A stretch of 35,123 nt of DNA from Kangiellaceae bacterium (lineage in GTDB: Bacteria > Pseudomonadota > Gammaproteobacteria > Enterobacterales > Kangiellaceae), in contig JAPHTP010000026.1 in assembly GCA_026196875.1 (NCBI GenBank), positions 1-35,123 on the forward strand, given 5' to 3'. The notes beneath the pieces were generated by a model, which was not told the origin of the DNA, searched no databases, and saw nothing but the letters and a program-made list of their open reading frames with translations. Positions 23,597-35,123 of the stretch are shown in pieces; the stretch's first letter is position 1; the number at the start of each line of letters is the position of its first letter. The translations under genes were made by a program, and so were the position numbers.

Positions 23597-25111
23597 ATGC
23601 AAAATGTAAAAGACATTATCATTCTCGGCGGCGGCACAGCGGGCTGGATGGCGGCAAATCTGATGGCTGCTCAATGGCATGAAAAAGGCATCAACATCAC
23701 ACTGGTAGAGTCACCCGAAATTGGCGTAATTGGTGTGGGAGAAGGTTCAACGCCAAAGTTAAAAGATTTTTTCGATACGTTAAATATTGAAGAAAGCGAA
23801 TGGATGCCAGCATGCAACGCAACCTATAAAAATGGCATTGATTTTCGCGACTGGTCAACGATTCCGGGATTCGAGTCATATTTCCATCCTTTCGGCTCTA
23901 CTATTGATAGCTTAACTTATAAATTTTTTAAGACTAACGCCATCCTGCGTAGAAAAAATGTGGATGTTAGTGCACATCCTAACCACTTTTTCTTGATGAC
24001 AAAGCTCGCGGCGAAAAAGTTAGCACCAATAGCTCCACCCAATTTTCCATTTCAAATGGATTACGCTTACCACTTTGACTCGGTGTTACTGGGACAGTTC
24101 TTAAAGAAAAAAGCTATCGAACGTGGAGTTAAATATGTTGAGGGGACGGTCGAAAATGCCCAGCTTTCTGAAAACGGCAAAATTGCCAGTATTCATTTAA
24201 AAAATGGTGACGAGTTATCTGCTGATTATTTTGTTGATTGCTCAGGTTTTTACTCTTTCCTGTTGCAAAAAACCTTGGGCGTTCCTTTTAAGAGTTTCTC
24301 TGACAATCTATTTAACGACTCAGCTGTTGCAATGCCAACAGAGATTACGTCTGAAATACCCTCTCAAACAGTTTCTACCGCATTATCCAATGGCTGGGCC
24401 TGGGAAATCCCGTTAACCAACCGCTTTGGTAATGGCTATGTATACAGTTCAAAATTTATTTCATCTGATCAAGCGGAAACTGAACTAAGACAAACGCTCG
24501 GATTGCTTGATGCTGATGTTGAAGTTAGACATCTTAAAATGAAAGTAGGCCGCGCCGAAAAATCATGGCATAAAAACTGTGTTGCAATAGGTCTTTCTCA
24601 AGGATTTATCGAGCCATTAGAAGCGACGGCCCTGCAATTTGTACAAACAACGATTGAGTCTTTCATCCAAGCATTTGAGATGGGCAATTTTTCTGAGACT
24701 CACCAAACGCAGTTTAACGAGCAGATAAACCGAAACTTTGAAGGTATTCGTGACTATATAGTTCTACATTACAAGACCAATTCAAGAAACGACACTGAAT
24801 ATTGGAGAGCAAACCGGGAGAACACAAATATTTCATCCAATTTACAAGCTATGCTTAGTTGCTGGGATAATGTGCAAAACCTGGAAGAAGCATTGCAACG
24901 CCTCGATATTGGAAAGTACTACACTTCAATATCCTGGAACTGTCTACTTGCGGGCGTTGGTCGATTTACTCAAAAAGACAAACTGATCCAACTAGATAAG
25001 CAACCACATGGAGTCGATCTCGATTACGTCGACAACTTTCTAAATGGCTGCTCGTTAAATTTTGGCGATCATAGAGAACAGCTCAATAGTTATTTGGCTA
25101 TGACTGCGTGA
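23597..25111 (+). CDS. Flavin-dependent tryptophan-halogenase family protein
   Basis: The 504-residue protein has the FAD-binding GGGTAGWMAA (11-20), GEGSTP (48-53), the halogenase lysine in ACNATYK (Lys78, equivalent to Lys79 of PrnA/RebH that forms the chloramine), the diagnostic WxWxIP motif as WAWEIP (267-272), and EPLEAT with Glu342 (PrnA has EPLEST, so the serine is alanine here). These features separate it from plain monooxygenases. Family members use reduced FAD from a partner reductase, O2 and halide to halogenate aromatic substrates. Many proteobacterial relatives sit beside TonB-dependent receptors and SapC or cupin genes and have unknown substrates. Here no such partner, reductase or biosynthetic gene is adjacent. 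The start ATG 23597 has a distant AGGG. No terminator was seen downstream. Confidence 0.87.
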   Translation: MQNVKDIIILGGGTAGWMAANLMAAQWHEKGINITLVESPEIGVIGVGEGSTPKLKDFFDTLNIEESEWMPACNATYKNGIDFRDWSTIPGFESYFHPFGSTIDSLTYKFFKTNAILRRKNVDVSAHPNHFFLMTKLAAKKLAPIAPPNFPFQMDYAYHFDSVLLGQFLKKKAIERGVKYVEGTVENAQLSENGKIASIHLKNGDELSADYFVDCSGFYSFLLQKTLGVPFKSFSDNLFNDSAVAMPTEITSEIPSQTVSTALSNGWAWEIPLTNRFGNGYVYSSKFISSDQAETELRQTLGLLDADVEVRHLKMKVGRAEKSWHKNCVAIGLSQGFIEPLEATALQFVQTTIESFIQAFEMGNFSETHQTQFNEQINRNFEGIRDYIVLHYKTNSRNDTEYWRANRENTNISSNLQAMLSCWDNVQNLEEALQRLDIGKYYTSISWNCLLAGVGRFTQKDKLIQLDKQPHGVDLDYVDNFLNGCSLNFGDHREQLNSYLAMTA

Positions 25112-25189
25112 TATTCAAATAGATCTTGCCATAGTAATTAAAACTTACGCAGCCCAAAGTGGTAAAGCGAGACCTACTCCCATTTACCC

Positions 25190-25222
25190 AATAAAGAAAA
25201 GCCGGACAGAGGATGTCAGGCT
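25190..25222 (-). terminator. Intrinsic terminator, minus strand, after the immunity-like pseudogene
   Basis: Read on the minus strand, AGCCTGACA and TGTCCGGCT form a 9-base stem (one mismatch) with a 5-base loop, followed by TTTTCTTTAT. It lies 70 bases past the pseudogene stop, just beyond hairpin repeat copy A. Confidence 0.75.
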
Positions 25223-25237
25223 GTGCCCACGATGGAA

Positions 25238-25281
25238 CTAGCGGTTACTTTGTGTAGCCGCCTGTGTTCATCTGTTTTTTT
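25238..25281 (-). repeat. Hairpin repeat, copy A (3' of immunity-like pseudogene)
   Basis: The stem GCGGTTAC/GTAGCCGC (25241-25248 with 25254-25261) is followed on the plus strand by TGTGTTCATCTG and a T-tract. The 28 bases at 25252-25279 recur exactly at 28315-28342, and a diverged copy lies at 25961-26006. The element sits 11 bases beyond the stop of the minus-strand gene, so on the transcript it reads A-tract, then hairpin. It is not a standard terminator in either direction, because no T-tract directly follows the stem. Confidence 0.85.
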
Positions 25282-25291
25282 ACGATTTTTC

Positions 25292-25585
25292 TTAGAGGTT
25301 GGACTCGCTTCGAAACTCATTCAGCAGCTCAAAAAATAACTTTAATCCCTCTCTCTCATCGTTTGAGAAAAACATTATGATTTGCATCCAGTTCTGGGAT
25401 GTTCTAACGCTGTACTTTTCTGCTACCTATTGTTGAAATTGGTTCCAAAATTGTTCTTCGTTATCTACGTTTTCTCTTAAAAAATAATAGCCATCAAGAA
25501 AACTCTTAAGTCTTACAATAGAAGCTGCTCCCAAATACATTCCCGCACGCTGCTTAATTTTTTCTAATATCTCAAAAATATTCAT
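25292..25585 (-). pseudogene. Small immunity-like gene interrupted by an in-frame amber codon
   Basis: From ATG 25583-25585, with a strong GAGG seven bases upstream, a 97-codon frame runs to TAA 25292-25294, broken only by TAG at 25427-25429 (codon 53). The two halves read as one compact protein: MNIFEILEKIKQRAGMYLGA near the start, YYFLRENVDNEEQFWNQFQQ before the stop codon, then VAEKYSVRTSQNWMQIIMFF and LFFELLNEF after it. One base change from TGG or CAG would explain the stop. The pattern RxGMYLG...FLDGY...FF.LL.EF reminds me of small proteins found near polymorphic toxins, but I cannot name the family. Position and the 3' hairpin repeat group it with the DUF2750 and SUKH genes. Confidence 0.65.
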
Positions 25586-25673
25586 AGTAATCCTCAAAAT
25601 TTAGAGCCACTGACTTTAAAAGTGCTAAAAAAGCGAAAAGAAGGAAAAGGGGTCAAAAGGATAGAGAAAATGG

Positions 25674-25860
25674 TGATTTAACAACTCTGCCACTTAAAAG
25701 CCTCCATATAAACATATGGGGCGCTTAATCTCGCTATGTACTATTCGGCAAGTACCAAATAGCGTCGTATAGGAGATTGGGTTAGGAGTTTCCTCCCACA
25801 GGCTTTCGACCTAAGAGATTTGCGAGAATCTCTCCCTAAAATGTAACGGTTAGATATTAG
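25674..25860. other. Hairpin-rich non-coding segment of unknown type
   Basis: No frame is credible here, yet several inverted repeats follow each other. They are CTCCATAT/ATATGGGG (loop AAAC); CGCTAT...ATAGCG enclosing GTACT/AGTAC; GGAG/CTCC (loop TTT); and AGAGATT/AATCTCT (loop TGCGAG). On the minus strand it lies upstream of the immunity-like pseudogene and downstream of the DUF2750 gene's terminator. It could be a structured RNA, a recombination site or a remnant of a mobile element. No known riboswitch or intron family was recognised. Confidence 0.4.
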
Positions 25861-25919
25861 CAATAATACTACTAATGATCTAATTGTAGATTGGACATGA
25901 AAAGCTCAGTCTTTGCTAC

Positions 25920-25950
25920 AAACAAAAAGCACCGTCTAATGACGATGCTT
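25920..25950 (-). terminator. Intrinsic terminator, minus strand, after the DUF2750 gene
   Basis: On the minus strand AAGCATCGTC-ATTA-GACGGTGCTT forms a 10-base stem with a single G-T pair and a 4-base loop, followed by TTTGTTTG. It stands about 100 bases past the DUF2750 stop, directly after hairpin repeat copy B. Confidence 0.85.
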
Positions 25951-25960
25951 TCAAATGAAG

Positions 25961-26006
25961 CTTAACGGGCAGCTACGTGTTTAGCTGCCTGCGATCGTCT
26001 GTTTTT
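25961..26006 (-). repeat. Hairpin repeat, copy B (3' of DUF2750 gene)
   Basis: This is a diverged copy of the element at 25238-25281. The stem GGCAGCTA/TAGCTGCC (25968-25975 with 25982-25989) is perfect, and the conserved tail TGCGATCGTCTGTTTTT aligns with TGTGTTCATCTGTTTTT of copies A and C. Stem bases differ from copy A but compensate to keep pairing (GCGG/CCGC against GCAG/CTGC), which suggests the secondary structure matters. It starts about 40 bases after the stop of the DUF2750 gene. Confidence 0.75.
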
Positions 26007-26046
26007 AATGGGGTCCTTTATCTGCTTCCCTATCTTTATATCTTTT

Positions 26047-26442
26047 CTATCCCCACAACTCCTCATGCTCTTGAATCAACTGCGCTTTAAGCTTACTCGG
26101 CTCACAGGTATAACCTTCTCTGGACTTATCATAGAAAATGCCAAATAAAACACCGTGCTCTTCCATATCTGAAATACATTCATTCACAAATACTTCAAAT
26201 GATATCATTTGAGGCTGAGCATTCATTTCGACATGCTCACTGAAACAACATTCTTGAGCTAATTCTTTATGCGGCCATAAAGGAAATATCTCATCTCCTT
26301 TGTTATCTTTAAATATCACCCAATTATCCTCTCCAACAACGAGCCCCCATACTTTTTCAGAATCTGCACACGTTCGAATGAAGTAATCAAATCGCTCTTC
26401 TGGAGATAATGCAATTAAATTAATAATTTTTTTTGGATGCAT
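26047..26442 (-). CDS. DUF2750 family protein, probable orphan immunity protein
   Basis: The 131-residue product starts at ATG 26440-26442, with AAGGA upstream; a TTG one codon earlier is less likely. The features SPEERFDYFIRTCADSEKVWGL, then GDEIFPLWPHKELAQ and the acidic C-terminal half match my memory of DUF2750. There is no signal peptide or membrane segment, so it is a small acidic cytoplasmic protein. The molecular role is unknown. DUF2750-like genes occur in clusters of toxin-immunity genes, and the setting here (downstream of an Rhs toxin and its SUKH gene, same strand, own terminator, same 3' repeat) supports the immunity reading by inference. Confidence 0.78.
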   Translation of the reverse strand: MHPKKIINLIALSPEERFDYFIRTCADSEKVWGLVVGEDNWVIFKDNKGDEIFPLWPHKELAQECCFSEHVEMNAQPQMISFEVFVNECISDMEEHGVLFGIFYDKSREGYTCEPSKLKAQLIQEHEELWG

Positions 26443-26554
26443 CAATTTTATTCCTTATTTTTACCGTATCTGTGTCGATGAAGTTTAGTTTCTACTTTAT
26501 GATCAGCGTGATTTTTTAGTAATGAACCTTTATAGCCGTGCCCATCACTTGAGC

Positions 26555-26618
26555 AAAAAAGGGGTCAAGTCACTTTTTCTACTTAGAAAAAATAAAAGGG
26601 GTCAAGTCGCTTTTTCTA
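26555..26618 (+). repeat. Two tandem REP-like sequences at the RAYT 3' end
   Basis: GGGGTCAAGTCACTTTTTCT (26561-26580) and GGGGTCAAGTCGCTTTTTCT (26598-26617) are direct copies differing at one base, both preceded by an A-tract. The second overlaps the stop codon of the transposase gene. Related copies occur inverted at 27613-27642 and direct at 28294-28315. Confidence 0.85.
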
Positions 26619-27591
26619 TAATAAATTCCTTCAAACGCTTTAGTTCCTGTTGCGCTATTCTACTCTGTTCGATTTCTTTTCTGACACTAGTCGTCGCAAA
26701 ACTAACCGAGCCGATATTACTCAAACCAAAACAATAACCGATTTCTTTAAGCGAATAACCACCAAGTTGCTGACAAATATACATTGCAATTTTTCTTACG
26801 GGATGACTTGCCTTTTTACCTTTAATGACTTTCACGAATGATTCGACCTTGACATCGTAAAACTGAGCAATGAGCTCTAACAAAATATCCATGCTCAACT
26901 CTTTTTGTAGTACCTGATTAACAACAACTTTTTCTTCTAACTGTGGAATCTTTTCCTCTCTTAACCAACTGACAAACTCCTTCTCTCCAATGACTGATGC
27001 CATGTTGCCCCTGTTGTAGAAACGTAAGAGCTCTTCACTGTTCCCACAGGCGACATAATCTCGATAACCTTGGTATTTCTGTTTTTTACCGAGCATCTGA
27101 TAGGTTTGATCTCGATGGAGCCAGTTTGGCGCAGGGACTTGATTAACGTAAGCAGGATAGCTTGACCAGGCATAATCCTCTAACTTCTCAACCATCGGCC
27201 ATCTAGTCTCTATTGGATTACGATGAATGTAACGTGACAATTGTAGAAGGTAACTATCCTCATCCACCAAAATCGACTTATATCGCCCCCGAAATAGTGG
27301 GCCATCGGTTCGTTTGAGACGATTATGTCGTTGTGTATAAACGCCGTTGATATGCCTCATCGCTCGCCCCAAGTTTCCCTCAGGCGTTTGAACCAGCAAA
27401 TGATAGTGATTTGTCATTAAGCAATAGCCGTGAATAACGAGATTAAACCGTTCAATGGCTTCCGCCAAAATATCAAGAAATGCTGCGTAATAAGCTTCGG
27501 AATGGAAGATGTTTTGACGACCGCGGTCACGCCCACGACTCATGACATGATAACAAGCATCCTCATATTCTATACGAAGTGGTCTAGGCAT
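26602..27591 (-). CDS. REP-associated tyrosine transposase (RAYT, Y1 family) with DnaA-like C-terminal HTH
   Basis: The 329-residue protein opens with MPRPLRIEYEDACYHVMSRG, typical of RAYTs. The HUH motif is HYH in LMTNHYHLLVQTPEGNLGR, and the catalytic tyrosine is probably in LSRYIHRNP. Residues about 215-329 form a second domain with ELIAQFYDV, SHPVRKIAMYICQQLGGYSL and FGLSNIGSVSFATTSVRK. These resemble the DnaA DNA-binding domain attached to one RAYT subgroup. RAYTs cut single-stranded DNA at REP palindromes and are generally domesticated. The frame looks intact. The stop codon lies inside the adjacent REP-like repeat. Confidence 0.88.
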   Translation of the reverse strand: MPRPLRIEYEDACYHVMSRGRDRGRQNIFHSEAYYAAFLDILAEAIERFNLVIHGYCLMTNHYHLLVQTPEGNLGRAMRHINGVYTQRHNRLKRTDGPLFRGRYKSILVDEDSYLLQLSRYIHRNPIETRWPMVEKLEDYAWSSYPAYVNQVPAPNWLHRDQTYQMLGKKQKYQGYRDYVACGNSEELLRFYNRGNMASVIGEKEFVSWLREEKIPQLEEKVVVNQVLQKELSMDILLELIAQFYDVKVESFVKVIKGKKASHPVRKIAMYICQQLGGYSLKEIGYCFGLSNIGSVSFATTSVRKEIEQSRIAQQELKRLKEFIIEKAT

Positions 27592-27612
27592 ACCGGAACA
27601 ATATCATGAGCA

Positions 27613-27642
27613 ATTAATATAGAACAAGCGACTTGACCCCTT
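27613..27642 (-). repeat. Inverted REP-like copy at the RAYT 5' end
   Basis: The reverse complement contains AAGGGGTCAAGTCGCTTGTT and matches the copies at 26594-26624 with about three differences. It lies 22 bases upstream of the RAYT start and ends exactly where IS30-like coding sequence begins. Confidence 0.8.
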
Positions 27643-28236
27643 ACCTCCTATCTGCCTCGCGCGCATAAGCATCGACGCCTCAAACGACCTTACCGCACTC
27701 AGCCTACACGCATTAAAAATAGGGTTTCCGTAAGTAAGCGGCCAAACAATGCGGAGCAACGAAAACGCTTCGGACACTGGGATAGTGACTCAATCATATC
27801 AAGCTGTAGAAAGCTGGCATTAAATGTTCTGATTGAACGCAAAACTCGACTTACACACATCTCTTTGATGCCTAATAAAACTGCTGAAACTAATCATAAA
27901 TTCATTGTTAATCGGTTAAAACACTACAAACAAAAAACAGTTTTGTCGATTACCTATGACAATGGCTGTGAAAATGTTTTGCATGAAAAAACGAATCAAC
28001 AACTGAAGTCTAAATCGTACTTTTGTGAGCCTTATCATAGTTGGGAGAAAGGCAGCGTAGAACGAGTTAATGGATTAATACGCCGATTCATTCCGAAAGG
28101 AACTGATTTCAAAGAAATCACTCCTAGCTTTATCAATAAAGTTGAAAAGCTATTGAACAACAGGCCTCGCAAGTGCTTAAATTATCAAACGCCTTACGAA
28201 GCTTTCAGAAAAGAGTGTGGTGCACTTACTGATTGA
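27643..28236 (+). pseudogene. 5'-truncated IS30-family transposase
   Basis: From 27652 the frame reads LPRAHKHRRLKRPYR, then RKRFGHWDSDSII, NVLIERKTRLTHISL, TYDNGCEN and CEPYHSWEKGSVERVNGLIR to a stop at 28236. These are the classical IS30 blocks, and all three catalytic acidic residues (in HWDSD, DNG and VERVNG) are present. The N-terminal helix-turn-helix half is absent: a TGA at 27634-27636, in the REP-like end of the RAYT element, closes the frame immediately upstream, and no matching 5' part was seen left of the RAYT. The listed ATG/TTG around 27865 is internal and not a true start. The remnant should be inactive. Confidence 0.85.
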
Positions 28237-28293
28237 GCGTGGCCTTTTAGACTATTGTCTACTTTTTGGAGTGGCCGTCAAATGTGGGGAAGA

Positions 28294-28315
28294 TCAAGTC
28301 ACTTTTTCTACTTAG
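28294..28315 (+). repeat. REP-like sequence, third direct copy
   Basis: These 22 bases (beginning TCAAGTCACTTTTTCTA and ending CTTAG) are identical to 26565-26586. The two copies flank the whole RAYT plus IS30 segment, about 1.7 kb apart, in direct orientation. Confidence 0.85.
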
Positions 28316-28342
28316 TGTAGCCGCCTGTGTTCATCTGTTTTT
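28315..28342 (-). repeat. Hairpin repeat, copy C, truncated (3' of SUKH gene)
   Basis: Twenty-eight bases are identical to 25252-25279, including GTGTAGCCGCC and TGTGTTCATCTGTTTTT. The other arm of the stem is missing: at 28314/28315 the sequence switches to the REP-like repeat. The copy lies 15 bases past the stop of the SUKH gene on the minus strand, the same relative place as copies A and B. No terminator follows, consistent with its loss by insertion or deletion. Confidence 0.85.
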
Positions 28343-28357
28343 ACTTCCTTCTTTAGA

Positions 28358-28813
28358 CTATTGTGCCCTTAATTCTAAATATTCAACAAAAAAATCTTTA
28401 AAACTCGATGACATTTCTCTATCAACACTCTTGTTAAAAAGATTATAGCTAACGACAGGACACTCATTAAATTCGTTTAACAAGTTACAATCTAAACACC
28501 AACATACTTCGTCATCTTTGAAAAAAATAACAGCTAAGTTATCCGGTAACTCATAATCTTCTCTGCAAGTAACAGTATCTCCCCAGACAGTTCCGCCATA
28601 ATCCAATTCTGCGTCATTATCCTCAATTCCAGAAATTTCAGATTCGACGATGCCTCCTCCGCCATAATTTTCTAAGAACTCTTTAAATGAACTTGGTAAG
28701 ATAAGTCCTAGCATAGACTCTAACTTTTCAACTTGAACAATATCCGTTTTGCCAAACCAGAAAGTTTCGTTGCCTTTGCTTTCAACTTGTTGTATCAATT
28801 TGTCGTAATTCAT
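28358..28813 (-). CDS. SMI1/KNR4 (SUKH) family immunity protein
   Basis: The 151-residue protein shows the SUKH core: VQVEKLESMLGLILPSSFKE followed by FLENYGGGGIVESEI, then an acidic region with VCWCLD and a C-terminal SSSFKDFFVEYLEL helix. SUKH proteins bind and neutralise nuclease toxins, often HNH/EndoVII types (Zhang, Iyer and Aravind). It starts six bases after the stop of the Rhs gene, with a GAG at the Rhs gene's end as ribosome-binding site, so the two form a toxin-immunity operon. It contains several cysteines and no signal peptide, hence is cytoplasmic. Confidence 0.87.
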   Translation of the reverse strand: MNYDKLIQQVESKGNETFWFGKTDIVQVEKLESMLGLILPSSFKEFLENYGGGGIVESEISGIEDNDAELDYGGTVWGDTVTCREDYELPDNLAVIFFKDDEVCWCLDCNLLNEFNECPVVSYNLFNKSVDREMSSSFKDFFVEYLELRAQ

Positions 28814-28819
28814 AAGTTT

Positions 28820-31800
28820 CTACTCAAAGTCTTTCGCTCTCAATTTCCAATAATCTTTTCTAAATGTATCATACTGGTATTTTAGAGCGGAGTCATTTCT
28901 AAAACTCCTTCCATTTTCTATTAGACCATGCAGCGCTTTGTGGTGTGTTTTGTGTGTGCTCGATAACAATTCGACCATGGGTCCGGGTTCTTTTCCCAAT
29001 ATATGATGTAAATTAATTTGCTTTCCGTCTACTCCGATTGGTGCGTATCCCTCTTTCATTAAGTCTAAGTTTGCCCAACCGTCATCAACCTTCTTTCGAA
29101 TACTTTTGTGGACGCTTTTATGTACAGTTTCTGGAGCGCCTGCAAAAACGTCTTTTGTATTCTTATATACTTTTCGCCCTAGAACACTTTTAGGTATGTA
29201 TTTGGTTCCTCCAGTAATAACCTTTTGAACAGCCCTAGCTGCCTTACTAGCCTTATACGTCTTATACGTCTTATACCCAGCATAAGCAATACCTCCAGTT
29301 GCAACTCCCGCAACAGCAAAGAGACCTTCAGTTGCAGCAGACTTAAATGCTCCCCAGTAATTACCTTGAGCAGCTTGTTGAATAGCTTCTCCAAACGGAA
29401 CTATTGCAGCGGCAACATTACCAGCTCCCCTCAAGAAGTTTTCAATTCCTAGTCTCGAAGTGATTGAAGTATTCCAGGAACCACCTCCTGATGTAAAGGA
29501 TGCTGCTGACGAATTGTCAATATCCTCAGGATTGATTATTGGGTTGCCTTTAACAACAGTAATATTTCCATTTCCACCATTATCAGTTTCTTGTTTCTTC
29601 TTTCCGCCTGAAATAATGAAGTCGCATAGATAATCACCACATTTTATTTTTTTACCTTGTGAGTCTTTGTCTCCCTTAGGAACATCTTTGTCACAATCGG
29701 GATTGTTAGCTCCACATCGAATAATTATTTCAATCTCGTAACCACTAGGATCAGTTCCAGAAAGAGGGTTATTCATTATGTACGAATACGGATTGATTCC
29801 TTGTGAGTTACCTACTATCTGAATAAACGGATCAACCGACAAGAATCTCCCCAGGTTATAGTCATAAACCCGTCCATTCATATGAATCAGCTGAGCATCA
29901 TCCAAATGTTCGTGGTCGGTAAATCCTCGTGTTGTTTTGGGGTCATCAAGTACATTTAAACTCACCGCACTATGCCAATTGTCCCGCATTTGTGGGTCTC
30001 TCGGTTTACCAAAGGGATCGTAACTATGTCCTTTGACGATATTTTTACTCGCATCGACGCTCGCAATCATTGACCCCAATCGGTCTCGATGGAAATACGT
30101 GACTTCTTCGCTTGATAAGCCATCTGGCTTGGTTACAACGGCAATGTCATCCACATAGGATTTATGAGTCACCTGTCCATTAGTTGTCACCCGCTCATAT
30201 TGTTTATCAATATAAATGGTCGTTGTGGTAGTACCGCTTGTCGTCTTAGTTTGCTTATAACGCATTTGGTCAGCACCATAACGGAAGTTAATCGTTCCGC
30301 CTAGATTCAGCGTCGCATCACCCGGATGGACTCTGACATTTTGCGCAATGGTAATCTGCGTTGGCTTATTAAACGCGTTGTAAATAATATTTCTCGCACC
30401 GTCGTTTTCTAAATTGCCGTTGTTATCGTAGGAGTAGTTACGGTAAGTTCCATTTTTCAGTTGCACCTGACGGACCGCATTCGGACCAGCATTACCGCCA
30501 ACACTTTTAGTTGCGTCACCGACGGCATAAGCCGATAACGTATTCATCGAGAAGTCGGTTTTATATTTAAAGTTACCAACTTTGTCATAACCGTAATCGA
30601 CGGATGGTTGGGGTGAACCTGATAAGGTTAAAGCTGAACGGATTAATCTATGCAAGTCATCATAAGCATAACTTTCCGTATCCAAACGATAGCTCCCTCC
30701 TTCATAGGTCCCCATCGTTTGGCCTTTCAAATTACCAAATCCGTCATAACCGCTGTAAACCACGGCCTGTTGCTGAGTGGAGTAGCGGTTTAAAATGGAG
30801 CTTTTCATCTGTCCGGTTTCGGCATAAAACTCGCGCTCGATATTCGAGGAATTTCCTAAACTTGCTTGAGTCCAATTCCCCCAATGGTCCATCGAAGTAA
30901 TGGTTCGATAGATAGCATTAGTTTGCGCATTTTTGGTGCGGTTTTGATAACCGTAGCTATTAAAATCATAAGCTACGATTAGGTCACTCGGATATTGTTT
31001 TCCTTTAACCCGGCCGTAGTTACCGTCGTAGAAAACTTTAGACGTAAAGCTATCTCCGTCGATATTGGTGATGGCACTGCTTGGACGACAGTAGTTGTCG
31101 TACTGATAGGTACGGTTGAAACTTTCACCGCTGGGTAAATCATTTCTGATTTCTTTATCTGGTACACCGCTACAGCTTGCGCTGCTTCCGTGATAACTAA
31201 ATGTGGCTTCAAGGTTACCGCTGGCCGTGCCGTTTAGATAACGATTCGTTAAACGCCCCAGTGCGTCATAAACATAATAGTAAGTATCATTATTCGCATC
31301 GGTCTCACTATAGACTTCACCATGTGAAGTGTAAGCAAAAGTTTTCACCCCCATGTTTGGATCATTCACTTCTAATTTCTGACCGAGGGCATTGTATTTG
31401 GCAGTTATTCGATTGCCGTTAGCATCCTGAATCACAATCGGGTTATCTAGCGCATCATAAGCATATTGAGTTACACCGTTAAGCGCATCGGTGGTTTTTA
31501 TCAGCTGCCCCTGAGCGTTATGAGTGCGACTCATTGAAAGCACTTTCAGACTTGTCATATCTTTGGCGGTAATATCCGTGCGGTGCTTGACATAAGCATA
31601 AGTAACTTCCATAGACTGACCATCCGACTGATCAACTTTACGTTTTAGCAACCTTCCCAGAACGTCGAATGCCAAGTAATTTGTGCCACGAGTCTCTAAA
31701 TGATTGGATGATGGGATCGATTCAAAGATAGTTCTGCCTAATCGATCATAGTCAATGAAACTGTAAATCGGATAGCCATCAAAACCTTCAGTCACCGTGG

Positions 31801-34800
31801 CTTTTACCCGGTTAAACTGATCTTTATAAACACTCGACTGAGGCGTGCCCGCTTGATAGGTGGTGACTTTATAACGAATATTACTATCAGTTAAATTACC
31901 GCAGCCTCCCTCACAAGCCGCGAATCGGCTATACGCCGGCTGACCAACAGGTGGCGTCACTTGCTCAATTCGGCCAAACGCATCATATGAAGTCTCGGTC
32001 ACGAAACCATTGACATCGATGACCTTTTTCATTTGACCATGTTCAGGATAAGTTTGAGTAATGGTTGATTGACTTAATGCATCAGTCACTTTGTAAATAA
32101 AATAACCATCCTCACTTTCCGTTTCACCATCATTGGAGTATTTAGTAGAAACCGTGCGGAAGTCTCCCGGTTTGTCTTGCTGATAAGTTTTTACTACTTC
32201 CGGTAAGCCATAGTCGTTATAAGTAGTTTCAACCACCTGAGTGGGGCTTTCATCATGGAGAGAATCGGCCACTACCTTGATCGGCTGTCGCGCACTATTG
32301 TACGTATAAGTCGTTGTAATTTCTTTTTCCGGATTTAACGTTGCATCATAAACCGGATTAAGCGACGACCAGTGCCGTTTTCTGACCATCGTGTTTTCTA
32401 ATTTACCAATCCACCAGTTGTCTACATCCACCGTGTGTTCGTTTAATATGCGCGTCTGAATTTCCCCTTCACCAGTGTTAATGTAAAGACTCACTTTGGA
32501 GAAATTCCCATAGTTATCGCTATGTTTTAGCCGCCTAACATTAGCGCGCACTGATAGTTGCTCTGTTCGATCCGCCAGGTCAAAGGTCGTAACTATTTGA
32601 AATTCAGGCCAAACCCAATACACATCAGCGCTGCTGTTGTCAGTCGACTCTGCAGTAACCTTCTCTGTCGCTGCCATTTCAGTTTTGCTGATGGGCGCTT
32701 CTCTACAAGTTTCATCTTCATCGCTTGCCAAACAGGTATGTATCCACTCAACTTGGCCAGATTGCGGGAATATCTGATGAAAGTCGGTTACCGAGCGCAT
32801 TTTATCGGAGACTTCTCCGGCACCATTAATTATAGTGGGAGAGTCAACAATTATCGTTCTGAAGCCTTGGAAACCACGGCCTTTACGATTGTAGATCGCT
32901 TCTTTATAACGATAAGTCGTTTCATTGGTTCCGCCGACACCATTAGATTGGCGGAAGTTAGTCACTACGGGCATGGATGAAGTAAAGTAGAAATGCTCGC
33001 GCTTTGAGTCTTTATTGGTATACCAAACCTCTCTGTCTTCTGGCACGGTATAAAGCTTGTTGCCATTAACTAATTCAGGTCTTGAAATTGGTGCAAAATC
33101 CCACTGCACTTCATTTAGCAAACCATCAACCACCTTGAACATAAAATCTGGCCGATAGGAAGAATGGGTTACGGTATTTTCTTGGAAGAACATGCCATCA
33201 GCCGGTTTATTGGTACCATTAAAGCTCCCGCCAAAAGAGCCTCTGACGCGATAGCCTTGTTCGAAAATTTCTCCGTTGTTACCCGGTGTTGAAAACGCAC
33301 TAACCGTCACAAATGAAATATCTAAATTGCCATCGTTGTTATAGTCTTTAAATGACAGTGGGGAAAAAGCCGTCCCATTTAAGAACTTAAAACCATTGAT
33401 TGGCGCATAGGCAATATCCGCAATCGTTCTTGCATGAGTTAAGCTGCCACTTTCCGATTTAAAATCAACCACGGACCAATAAAAACGACGGAAGTCATAC
33501 TGACTTAAGTTAATCGTCATTTCATCGCCCTGACCAGCGCCGTCACAGCCTAATGTTGTGGTTTCTTCGACATATAAATATTCATCCGAAACACACATGT
33601 TCATTGTATCTTTGAAATTGCCCTCATGAGTTAACCACTGACCAAGCATACGCATGGTAAAGCTATCAGTGGTATGAGTGGCGATAACCAGTTCTTCTGC
33701 ACCATCACCATCTAAATCAGCAACGGTTACACGACCATTTTTGTGAATTTTCTTTAACTCCGGCGTACCCGCTGGATAAGAATACATGTCAGCTAATCCA
33801 ACATCCGTATCCAAAGAGTAAGCAGCTGCAAAAGAACGATTACCTTTATTAATTTGCACGTGCCATTTTCTGACACCTGAAGTAACTTCTTTAGCAAATA
33901 CATAATCTTTCAGACCATCACCATTAAGGTCCGCGTATACCGCTTTCTCTGCTGTTCCGTCTAATCCCAAACTCGCACTGGATACACTGCTTAAACTTAA
34001 TATGCCATTGGCATCACGCTGAGAAAAATAAATCTTTTCAACTCGGGAGCTTTGCCCGCTGAGTAACAATCGACTAAAGTCAATTAAACCGTCGCCATCC
34101 AGATCGATTGCTGACACTGGCGGTGTACCACCTTGACCTAGTCCAAGATCTTCTAAATCGTGAGGACCGGTAAAGTCTACGGTCCCATTAGCTTTATTTC
34201 GATAATAGGTTATTTTATAGGTCGAATTGATCCCTAATGTAGCGAATAAGATGTCCTGATAACCATCTGCATCAACGTCAACAATTTGAAGACCTTGGCC
34301 GCCGTAGATCTTGTCGTATCCAACGGTGAAATAGAAACTTGTTGCATGACGGACTAAATTGAAATTTTGATCGAATTGAAAATAAACCAAGCGACGATTG
34401 TCAGAAGTGACAAAGTCAGTGATCCCATCACCGTTGATATCTCCTTCAATGCCACCATATACAATATGGTCGTAGTTATTTAAGTTAGCGGTTGTTTCCT
34501 CAACATACTTGCCTTGAGTGTTTATCGTGTAGACACGAACGTCATAAGTACCATCGTTTTCACTACCGTCTTTTATTTCATCAAGATAAAGCGCTTCTGA
34601 AATGCCATCACCATTTAAATCTTTAAGAAGAATTTTGTCGTTGTTTTCAAGCTTACCTAAATTGGCGATAGGCGATTGATTGACATCTCCGCTATTGACG
34701 GATTCCCAACCAAGAGCCGGTGTATAGGTCGAGTAATTGGTTGCTGGTAAACAGCTCTCTGAGCCACTTTCGTTATAAGCACATTCTTGAATTGAGCTGA

Positions 34801-35123
34801 CAACCTGACGTTTACTGGTCGTACTCGTTTGATAATTTAACTGGTATTTTCTGACAGGTGAACTGCTATATTTGGTTGTAATTGATTCCAACAATTTGGT
34901 TTTAGTCATTTGGCCGCCAGCCAGATAAGACAACGAGGCATCGCTCCTTTCGCCGCTGCCATAACCCAAACCATTGCCATAACTGAATACTACATGGCGA
35001 TTACCATGGCTCGAACCGCTCCCCGTATAATCAATTGACGTTAAAAGATGCTCACCTGAACCAAAGTTGGTGTAGTTGTAATAAATATTATTTTTATTGG
35101 TCGCTCTATCTTCTTCTTTTTTA
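28820..35123 (-). CDS. Rhs/YD-repeat polymorphic toxin with FG-GAP repeats and C-terminal LHH nuclease (5' end outside window)
   Basis: The frame is open to the right edge (over 2100 codons), so the true start lies beyond 35123; the TTG near 34969 is internal. The visible N-terminal third carries seven calcium-loop FG-GAP/VCBS motifs (for example DLNGDGISEALYLDE, DVDADGYQDILFAT), as in SpvB/TcB-type shells. The middle holds YD repeats (YDAFGRIEQV, YDALGRLTNRY) and the Rhs core RDRLGSM, GRVYDYNLGRFLSVDPF and NPYSYIMNNPLSGTDPSG near 29750. The last about 305 residues are the variable tip: an Ala/Gly-rich hydrophobic stretch, then NLHHILG and STHKTHHKALHG, matching the LHH subgroup of HNH/EndoVII nucleases. 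The YD shell should encapsulate the tip until delivery. No PAAR or VgrG sequence is visible; the delivery route is unknown. Confidence 0.9.
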   Translation of the reverse strand, partial: KKEEDRATNKNNIYYNYTNFGSGEHLLTSIDYTGSGSSHGNRHVVFSYGNGLGYGSGERSDASLSYLAGGQMTKTKLLESITTKYSSSPVRKYQLNYQTSTTSKRQVVSSIQECAYNESGSESCLPATNYSTYTPALGWESVNSGDVNQSPIANLGKLENNDKILLKDLNGDGISEALYLDEIKDGSENDGTYDVRVYTINTQGKYVEETTANLNNYDHIVYGGIEGDINGDGITDFVTSDNRRLVYFQFDQNFNLVRHATSFYFTVGYDKIYGGQGLQIVDVDADGYQDILFATLGINSTYKITYYRNKANGTVDFTGPHDLEDLGLGQGGTPPVSAIDLDGDGLIDFSRLLLSGQSSRVEKIYFSQRDANGILSLSSVSSASLGLDGTAEKAVYADLNGDGLKDYVFAKEVTSGVRKWHVQINKGNRSFAAAYSLDTDVGLADMYSYPAGTPELKKIHKNGRVTVADLDGDGAEELVIATHTTDSFTMRMLGQWLTHEGNFKDTMNMCVSDEYLYVEETTTLGCDGAGQGDEMTINLSQYDFRRFYWSVVDFKSESGSLTHARTIADIAYAPINGFKFLNGTAFSPLSFKDYNNDGNLDISFVTVSAFSTPGNNGEIFEQGYRVRGSFGGSFNGTNKPADGMFFQENTVTHSSYRPDFMFKVVDGLLNEVQWDFAPISRPELVNGNKLYTVPEDREVWYTNKDSKREHFYFTSSMPVVTNFRQSNGVGGTNETTYRYKEAIYNRKGRGFQGFRTIIVDSPTIINGAGEVSDKMRSVTDFHQIFPQSGQVEWIHTCLASDEDETCREAPISKTEMAATEKVTAESTDNSSADVYWVWPEFQIVTTFDLADRTEQLSVRANVRRLKHSDNYGNFSKVSLYINTGEGEIQTRILNEHTVDVDNWWIGKLENTMVRKRHWSSLNPVYDATLNPEKEITTTYTYNSARQPIKVVADSLHDESPTQVVETTYNDYGLPEVVKTYQQDKPGDFRTVSTKYSNDGETESEDGYFIYKVTDALSQSTITQTYPEHGQMKKVIDVNGFVTETSYDAFGRIEQVTPPVGQPAYSRFAACEGGCGNLTDSNIRYKVTTYQAGTPQSSVYKDQFNRVKATVTEGFDGYPIYSFIDYDRLGRTIFESIPSSNHLETRGTNYLAFDVLGRLLKRKVDQSDGQSMEVTYAYVKHRTDITAKDMTSLKVLSMSRTHNAQGQLIKTTDALNGVTQYAYDALDNPIVIQDANGNRITAKYNALGQKLEVNDPNMGVKTFAYTSHGEVYSETDANNDTYYYVYDALGRLTNRYLNGTASGNLEATFSYHGSSASCSGVPDKEIRNDLPSGESFNRTYQYDNYCRPSSAITNIDGDSFTSKVFYDGNYGRVKGKQYPSDLIVAYDFNSYGYQNRTKNAQTNAIYRTITSMDHWGNWTQASLGNSSNIEREFYAETGQMKSSILNRYSTQQQAVVYSGYDGFGNLKGQTMGTYEGGSYRLDTESYAYDDLHRLIRSALTLSGSPQPSVDYGYDKVGNFKYKTDFSMNTLSAYAVGDATKSVGGNAGPNAVRQVQLKNGTYRNYSYDNNGNLENDGARNIIYNAFNKPTQITIAQNVRVHPGDATLNLGGTINFRYGADQMRYKQTKTTSGTTTTTIYIDKQYERVTTNGQVTHKSYVDDIAVVTKPDGLSSEEVTYFHRDRLGSMIASVDASKNIVKGHSYDPFGKPRDPQMRDNWHSAVSLNVLDDPKTTRGFTDHEHLDDAQLIHMNGRVYDYNLGRFLSVDPFIQIVGNSQGINPYSYIMNNPLSGTDPSGYEIEIIIRCGANNPDCDKDVPKGDKDSQGKKIKCGDYLCDFIISGGKKKQETDNGGNGNITVVKGNPIINPEDIDNSSAASFTSGGGSWNTSITSRLGIENFLRGAGNVAAAIVPFGEAIQQAAQGNYWGAFKSAATEGLFAVAGVATGGIAYAGYKTYKTYKASKAARAVQKVITGGTKYIPKSVLGRKVYKNTKDVFAGAPETVHKSVHKSIRKKVDDGWANLDLMKEGYAPIGVDGKQINLHHILGKEPGPMVELLSSTHKTHHKALHGLIENGRSFRNDSALKYQYDTFRKDYWKLRAKDFE

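Follow-up and report, generated by a model that had tools for sequence, protein, structure and literature searches.

The Rhs locus in the window, which is the whole stretch of 35,123 nucleotides analysed here, is a variant of the known Rhs C-terminal displacement, and the new part of it is a repeated 3' terminator module. The reading favoured here, with a probability of about 0.7, is that the repeated element is the 3' end common to a group of Rhs tip-immunity cassettes in Aliikangiella, that it is carried with each incoming cassette, and that older units have been stacked downstream by displacement. A preliminary description of this DNA had proposed one element in three copies behind three unrelated small genes, and this is confirmed; the genes lie downstream of an Rhs toxin gene. 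The features are as follows, in descending order of position.

28820..35123, minus strand: Rhs toxin gene with FG-GAP and RHS repeats in its core (Pfam FG-GAP_3, RHS_repeat)
28358..28813, minus strand: SUKH-family immunity gene that adjoins the LHH tip (SUKH_5, 3.4e-22)
28309-28342, minus strand: copy C of the 3' element, cut within the hairpin loop (97% to copy A)
28286..28310, minus strand: end repeat of RAYT type, joined to copy C within its loop (family D2, 72% to the reference copy)
27865..28236, plus strand: weak IS fragment, integrase-core like (rve_3, 19.2 bits, below the cut-off of 26.5)
27620-27642, 26594-26618 and 26557-26581: the RAYT's own end repeats (I2, I1 and D2)
26602..27591, minus strand: RAYT (REP-associated tyrosine transposase; Y1_Tnp, Bac_DnaA_C)
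26448..26552, minus strand: C-terminal remnant of a displaced Ntox8 toxin (translation; similarity to the G013 tip)
26047..26445, minus strand: DUF2750 (= Imm16), an orphan immunity gene (PF11042, 9.9e-25)
25973-26006, minus strand: copy B of the 3' element, belonging to a second subfamily (sequence comparison)
25925..25952, minus strand: predicted intrinsic terminator of copy B, a 12-pair stem and T run (pattern scan)
25292..25585, minus strand: immunity-like gene broken by one internal stop codon (reading frame)
25246-25279, minus strand: copy A of the 3' element (sequence comparison)
25196..25222, minus strand: predicted intrinsic terminator of copy A (fold; stem kept with changed pairs in relatives)

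The frame of the Rhs gene is open to the contig end (~2100 codons), thus the 5' part of the gene is missing. DPSGY marks the boundary between core and tip near 29738, and the tip has an LHH (HNH/EndoVII) nuclease domain at ~28829-29071 (Pfam LHH PF14411, 1.6e-24). The earlier calls of a SUKH_5 gene and a DUF2750 gene are borne out by Pfam, and the third gene, described as a pseudogene, does have one internal stop in its frame. Neither half of this broken gene has a Pfam family; for its first half a distantly related open frame (32%, E 6e-5) lies within a row of small genes at C50 of the same genome, and a plasmid search with that half gave one weak match. The tandem same-strand set consists of SUKH, Imm16 and this single broken gene, with IS and RAYT sequences intervening. 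SUKH and DUF2750 have no mutual similarity at E 1e-5, the broken gene standing outside that comparison, and PADLOC gave no match for the four proteins submitted.

A 20-base motif of the element has three matches in the window, every one exact, against a shuffle mean of 0.01 with up to three mismatches allowed. Copies A and C agree at 97% of 34 bases and, as previously described, have 28 identical bases in common as an exact run, with copy B at 71% identity in the same element comparison. The spacing from stop codon to CAG is 20 bases in C, 45 in B and 17 in A, and the similarity between the gene-plus-module units starts at the A-tract. Copy C is cut within its loop and the sequence that follows matches the end repeat of the RAYT element, therefore this copy is without a second arm and without a terminator, and the proposal of a second stem arm in every copy fails for C. 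The compensatory stem changes attributed to copy B come down to only one of the ten predicted pairs of the upstream hairpin. The core sites of attC have the motif RYYYAAC / GTTRRRY, and paired sites of this kind were found in none of the eight stretches scanned; Rfam likewise gave no matches in the window or in the eight loci submitted.

Judged from its sequence the element is a 3' module, a conserved hairpin followed by a putative intrinsic terminator that varies in sequence whilst its stem is kept. Terminators had been described behind both A and B; that of B is the only one found by a pattern scan (the fold of its region has a z of -4.32), and that of A is seen in the fold. Within four hand-picked sequences 97.2% of the cells of the terminator stem are paired, which is reached in 10 of 500 shuffles, and slid versions of the stem reach 61.1% at most. 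Double-change pairs number two, a count also reached in 332 of 500 shuffles. A GC-rich stem, then a U run, with changed pairs that keep the stem, is what is found in these few sequences, and the module is predicted to end transcription.

Across the seven genus genomes searched there are 10 copies at eight places in Aliikangiella, and at seven of the eight it comes immediately after a small gene that itself lies downstream of an Rhs tip. The four copies found in the window's own genome all follow small genes behind Rhs tips. The repeat is thus not scattered genome-wide behind ordinary genes in these genomes, although the idea that copies always lie 3' of small immunity-type genes or Rhs tips has one exception, at G003:C1:960963, where the copy follows a Sel1-repeat gene and no Rhs was seen in the 14.5 kb read. 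In these searches 7 of 15 rows (E of at least 0.058) and 9 of 11 rows (E of at least 0.038) were set aside. Most Rhs loci are without the element, it being present in four of the 29 examined, a count in which two 5-mismatch matches were set aside; these 29 come from 35 Rhs core matches, five distant ones of which were unfetched and one of which ran off its contig. The A-type module is found behind different core classes (C165, the orphan tip at C76 and the G003 loci, with 60% core identity), and modules at different loci are 82-88% identical over 64-72 bases, whilst the only other good match to copy B is in G001. At G003_C23 the element is a plain 59-base tandem triplication and at G003_C1 the frame of the small gene ends inside the module. 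A Phage_integrase gene adjoins the C76 copy.

An exact degenerate scan of genome contigs found the element at two Rhs loci of Aliikangiella sp. G2MR2-5. A match from the same scan in Amphritea lies inside a parA-like gene and was read as chance. A further scan gave five 2-mismatch matches and its backward control three matches in 40 genomes, with no Rhs over the 1.2 kb read at L010 and L017 (L014-L016 were left out). The element was found in none of the plasmids, phages and viral contigs searched.

It is the remnants of toxins ahead of orphan immunity genes that give direct support to stacking by displacement. In the window a stub of an Ntox8 toxin, its final ~33 residues, ends just ahead of the DUF2750 gene, with 79% identity over 28 residues to the end of the Rhs-Ntox8 tip of G013, a related genus. 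There the tip is intact (PF15545, 28.5 bits, cut-off 25) and precedes a DUF2750 gene whose product is 53% identical to that of the window. Among the 29 other DUF2750 loci read G013 is the only one with the Ntox8 tail, the rest having more distant DUF2750 proteins. Ntox8 is reported as a toxin paired with Imm16, which is DUF2750, in the part of Zhang et al. 2012 (PMC3482391) consulted.

A comparable arrangement is apparent in the congener G001, where locus G001_C2 has a 143-base repeat with a terminator hairpin in two copies (89.5% identical), one 108 bases past the first small gene and the other 14 bases past an orphan SUKH gene. Between them lie the tail of a displaced LHH toxin, a weak match (E 0.02 in a small search, against 0.044 for the best reversed control), and the orphan SUKH gene. 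The junction falls within the old toxin, a short way beyond the repeat of this locus, and the repeat recurs in the G001 Rhs loci C4c and C6a (80-87%, in the comparison among 29 loci). LHH/SUKH is the kind of pair that is attached to the Rhs core in the window. At G000_C61 a CdiA_C toxin tail is followed by a small gene and then by a repeat copy. Ntox8 is attached in G013 and displaced in the window, and LHH/SUKH attached in the window and displaced in G001, in both cases between species and at the family level only. The earlier suggestion that older immunity-type genes are stacked behind the Rhs tip with a common 3' module is supported, as are these toxin traces ahead of the orphans.

At the other side of the cassette, the window and G000_C66 are 80.9% identical across the 1.8 kb that lead to the core end, and identity then falls to ~36-42%, which supports a sharp 5' boundary where the Rhs core stops. 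Short conserved core-end blocks (112-193 bases, 76-90%) are found between the window and five of the eight loci compared. No fragments of the window core were found by protein in 25100-28357 (E <= 1), one 15-base DNA match (E 0.05) being the only one by DNA, and a core scrap was seen at G001_C4c. In four of the six other genus genomes the yqgE-ruvX site was read, and the ~15 kb after ruvX matched neither the Rhs core end nor the halogenase. The comparison between loci comprises 110 inter-locus rows among the 29 loci; the window and G000_C66 have one shared 3' stretch, within the RAYT (72% over 243 bases). In the window, IS and RAYT insertions mask the junction behind copy C.

In the favoured reading a new tip-immunity cassette, when loaded onto an Rhs core, would bring its own copy of the 3' module, with its 5' end joining by homology in the conserved core and its 3' end joining past the module, inside the old toxin tip, by what would be an illegitimate joining. 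The old toxin would thereby be beheaded, with the old immunity gene and its 3' module remaining downstream, and repeated rounds would produce immunity gene and module, immunity gene and module. In the window the order would be LHH/SUKH on the core, Ntox8/Imm16 displaced and an older unit broken; this order of events, like the function of the toxins and of the orphan genes, is what we infer. The retention of old immunity genes during stacking is still a model. The tail apparently marks the place at which one toxin-immunity unit came to be stacked on another. With the displaced toxin stubs and the 3' module of each unit both visible, it becomes possible to read the breakpoints of individual displacement events. 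A module that travels with the cassette helps to put these events in order, and if it is used in the exchange a cassette boundary would be built from a terminator.

The latter, that the module is itself a recombination site, is considered unlikely. It would work by short RecA-dependent homology, core to module or module to module, similar to an integron without an integrase, with one-module circles inserting into a resident module so that units are added, deleted and swapped. The similarity of gene-plus-module units from the A-tract onward, the same module on different core classes, the frame in G003_C1 that runs into the module and the short conserved blocks at core ends are all in keeping with this. 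However, were core and repeat to recombine by a double cross-over, the outcome would be replacement of the old pair and not stacking, which speaks against the repeat as second arm, and the identity available is short (28-34 bases between A and C, and the 64-72 imperfect bases between loci). Copy B being of another subfamily and the G001_C2 junction lying past the repeat, inside the toxin, also count against it, and both fit a module carried by the incoming cassette with illegitimate 3' joining. Of the cassette exchange in the preliminary description, the stacking and the 5' core boundary are supported, whilst the 3' repeat as its second homology arm is not supported, given that same junction and subfamily. 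It is distinctly doubtful that the terminator also serves as the handle for exchange in an integron-like system that works without a recombinase. In such a system units of tip, immunity gene and module would be added behind Rhs cores through module-to-module homology, whatever the core lineage, as an inherited record of past toxins.

REP/REPIN sequences are hairpins with RAYT genes nearby, and a REP-like sequence spread by RAYT transposases could accumulate in the dispensable space behind Rhs genes. RAYT genes do occur within a few kb of the copies in the window, at the G003 Rhs locus and at G001_C7a, the stretch before G003:C1:960963 is the separator of the G003_C23 tandem copies and is taken as a RAYT-type end, and other Rhs loci have REP-like repeats. 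Yet the window RAYT, the one compared, has end repeats that differ from the element, no RAYT match was found at C76 (6.9 kb read) or around G003:C1:960963 (14.5 kb), a terminator closes the intact copies, and the few copies have nearly one genomic context, in the window's own genome exclusively so. Copy number and context rule out REP as the main reading, and this origin is very unlikely. Most improbable is local duplication only, the terminator being copied in tandem within one locus with no relation to cassette replacement. This would account for copies A and C being almost identical and for the triplication at G003_C23, but not for the dissimilarity of SUKH and DUF2750, the Ntox8 remnant, a copy B of another subfamily, or the presence of the module at several loci per genome (G000, G003).

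DUS sequences act genome-wide as signals for DNA uptake, whereas the window module was found at a few Rhs loci only. The inverted-repeat DUS terminators of Neisserial vgrG effector-immunity clusters (PMC10210955, in part) are alike in being a repeated terminator tied to DNA exchange. Rhs C-terminal displacement, as set out in the main text of Jackson et al. 2009 (PMC2935791), involves a conserved core, an exchangeable tip and old tips shunted downstream, and the window resembles this in its core, sharp core/tip boundary, variable tip with immunity gene, and displaced tip remnant downstream (Ntox8 before DUF2750). The units described there keep core fragments as direct repeats, with a circular intermediate proposed, whereas no core piece was found in the window array, which repeats a 3' terminator module instead, the words 'terminator' and 'intergenic' being absent from that main text. 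The orphan immunity arrays of the V. cholerae T6SS (Kirchberger et al. 2017, PMC5361080) are alike in that immunity genes are kept and effectors displaced, illegitimate joining having been proposed for them, but a common 3' repeat is not described in the parts examined ('intergenic' 0 occurrences, 'repeat' 1). The same part of Zhang et al. 2012 (PMC3482391) deals with polyimmunity loci and with strings of immunity genes behind toxins; polyimmunity genes lie close together there and are presumed to be on a single message, whereas each unit of the window closes with a terminator module of its own. The orphan cdiA-CT/cdiI modules of Poole et al. 2011 (PMC3150448, in part) are likewise toxin-immunity orphans downstream, with a 5' VENN region as the repeated part and not a 3' element. 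No report of a 3' repeat or terminator was found in the literature on such arrays, in a search with subscription papers mostly outside it.

Some Rhs loci have repeats of another kind, and genome-wide searches cover the window element and the repeats of G002_C2b, G000_C61 and G000_C174. A broader suggestion, with a separate 3' repeat for each Rhs locus, was cut back. The repeats of G002_C2b and G000_C61 are partly REP-like, both queries also matching short stretches elsewhere, many in G005. With the G002_C2b query 17 of 18 matches in G002 are in two stretches, one around the G002_C2b Rhs locus and the other, L161, which holds a second Rhs-type gene. The G000_C174 repeat is confined, with four matches at E <= 0.01, three in C174 and one in C61.

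Immediately upstream of the DUF2750 gene (26047-26445), in the array behind the LHH/SUKH pair that is attached to the Rhs core, the window has a 33-residue tail with a stop codon before the gene. A matching tail, 79% identical over 28 residues, ends an Rhs tip in G013, a genome from a different genus in the family. That tip carries an Ntox8 domain (PF15545, above the cut-off), and the next gene encodes a DUF2750 protein 53% identical to that of the window. This was the one locus with an Ntox8 tail among the 29 other DUF2750 loci read. DUF2750 is listed as Imm16, paired with Ntox8, in PMC3482391, and two plasmid records have a toxin-type-8 or Rhs gene directly ahead of DUF2750. Therefore the DUF2750 gene is most likely the former immunity gene of an Rhs-Ntox8 tip, its predicted role being protection.

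A mirror case of this displacement is G001_C2, an Rhs locus of a congener, where a 143-base repeat with a predicted 9-pair terminator hairpin occurs twice, 108 bases past the first small gene and 14 bases past a SUKH gene, the copies being 89.5% identical. The stretch that separates the first repeat from the SUKH gene holds a tail resembling that of the predicted LHH toxin of the window. A 24-residue query matched 16 plasmid records (best E 2e-3), and among the 15 listed of these, seven are annotated as HNH/ENDO VII nucleases (H27, at E 0.7, and H30, at E 4, among them), one as a hemagglutinin-repeat protein and seven have no annotation there. The same repeat is also found, at 80-87%, in two further Rhs loci of this genome, in C6a 102 bases past the first small gene, and in C4c with no intact gene recognised right before it.

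It had been claimed in the preliminary description that three small genes of the array are each followed by a copy of one element, and this holds, with three copies against 0.01 expected from shuffles of the window:

25246-25279, minus strand: copy A, behind the broken immunity-like gene (25292-25585), 17 bases from stop to CAG
25973-26006, minus strand: copy B, behind the DUF2750 gene, 45 bases from stop to CAG
28309-28342, minus strand: copy C, behind the SUKH gene, 20 bases from stop to CAG

Copy C is interrupted in its hairpin loop by the end repeat of a REP-associated tyrosine transposase (RAYT; 28286-28310). Copies 1 and 2 in G003_C23 (L011:7330-7470) are likewise broken near this position, by a different stretch which is taken as the end of another RAYT, as if the hairpin loop were a target. 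The module as a whole is a conserved hairpin followed by a predicted intrinsic terminator, an intact terminator being missing from copy C and from the copy at G003:C1:960963. Of the 10 pairs predicted for the upstream hairpin, one shows a double change. In the A-type terminators (n=4) 97.2% of cells are paired, against at most 61.1% in slid versions, and two pairs have double changes, each in two sequences. Of 500 shuffles, 10 reach their values for pairing and for cells with double changes and 332 reach their number of doubly changed pairs, and these statistics are modest evidence for conservation of the stem. In G003_C1 the reading frame of the small gene stops within the module. The interval from terminator B to the broken gene (25590-25880) contains further stem-like sequence, with no Rfam match.

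A two-mismatch search of the window's own genome (G000) returned the three window copies only. A BLAST-type search of seven genomes of the genus with the 81-base A module added G000:C76, G003:C1:1516647, G003:C23 (three tandem copies) and G003:C1:960963, and the B module added G001:C7:2559, giving 10 copies at eight places, although more diverged copies may have escaped. In the repeat search proposed earlier for the host and its relatives, seven of the eight places (three in the window, C76, two in G003 and one in G001) are downstream of an Rhs tip, with the element directly following a small gene. At C76 the tip is an orphan and belongs to a different core class, and the G001 copy is some 2.9 kb past the Rhs end with a RAYT in between; the eighth place (G003:C1:960963) is behind a Sel1-repeat gene, and no Rhs was seen there. 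The element thus nearly always implies an Rhs cassette, whilst most Rhs cassettes are without it, four of 29 Rhs loci examined having a copy (G001_C7a among these, with 4 mismatches). REP-like repeats in other Rhs loci can mimic its pattern. At C76 (L102:4740-6860) the orphan Rhs tip, small gene and module copy are next to a Phage_integrase gene, close to where the contig ends.

The preliminary description had proposed recombination between the Rhs core on one side and the 3' repeat on the other. The core boundary stands: across the 1792 bases that lead to the core end, the window shares 80.9% identity with another Rhs locus of the genome, G000_C66, with 73 to 92% per 100-base interval in the last 1.4 kb and 36-42% thereafter, and their 3' sides have a RAYT stretch alone in common. 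Core homology would provide the 5' end of an exchange. The repeat is not supported as a constant second end: were a 3' module always the other end, the old pair would be replaced rather than stacked upon. The incoming piece would instead bring its own module and join at its 3' side inside the old toxin, leaving a beheaded toxin and stacked units. Stacking with a beheaded toxin fits this better than module-to-core exchange each time, and joining inside the old toxin has been proposed for V. cholerae (PMC5361080). Exchange mediated by the module may be an alternative 3' route. The A-type module is common to loci of 60% core identity and to another core class, thus module and core seem, from their sequences, to have separate histories. 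The nearest match of copy B is a module in G001, at 84% over 69 bases against 71% to copy A, which fits units of different origin.

The array and Rhs gene lie on the minus strand after 25111 of contig C165, which is complete in the window, the Rhs gene being truncated at the contig end; the genome is 6.28 Mb. Up to 25111 are pilus/chemotaxis-type genes, gshB, a TonB-like gene, two genes which we take to be yqgE and ruvX, and a tryptophan halogenase. The yqgE-ruvX pairing is kept in four other genomes, and the halogenase and Rhs genes (23597-35123) had no match in the some 15 kb behind ruvX in four other genomes of the genus.

Other arrays vary in content. In G001_C4c an Rhs core scrap lies between small genes behind the tip, some 1475-1530 bases beyond the core end (L065), as such scraps do in published displacement loci, and G000_C61 has a CdiA_C tail and small gene followed by another repeat copy. 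Several arrays are filled by small secreted-looking proteins instead of known immunity families; those of ~110 aa, with a weak DUF5992 match in one of two scanned, lie behind Rhs-type genes with repeats in between in five stretches (L059 and L161 of G002; L053, L054 and L055 of G000), and in L161 also ahead of the Rhs-type gene. Elsewhere in the same genome (L162:5282-8879) a row of small same-strand genes, three of which had no Pfam family when scanned and one of which is akin to the broken gene of the window, looks like a polyimmunity locus.
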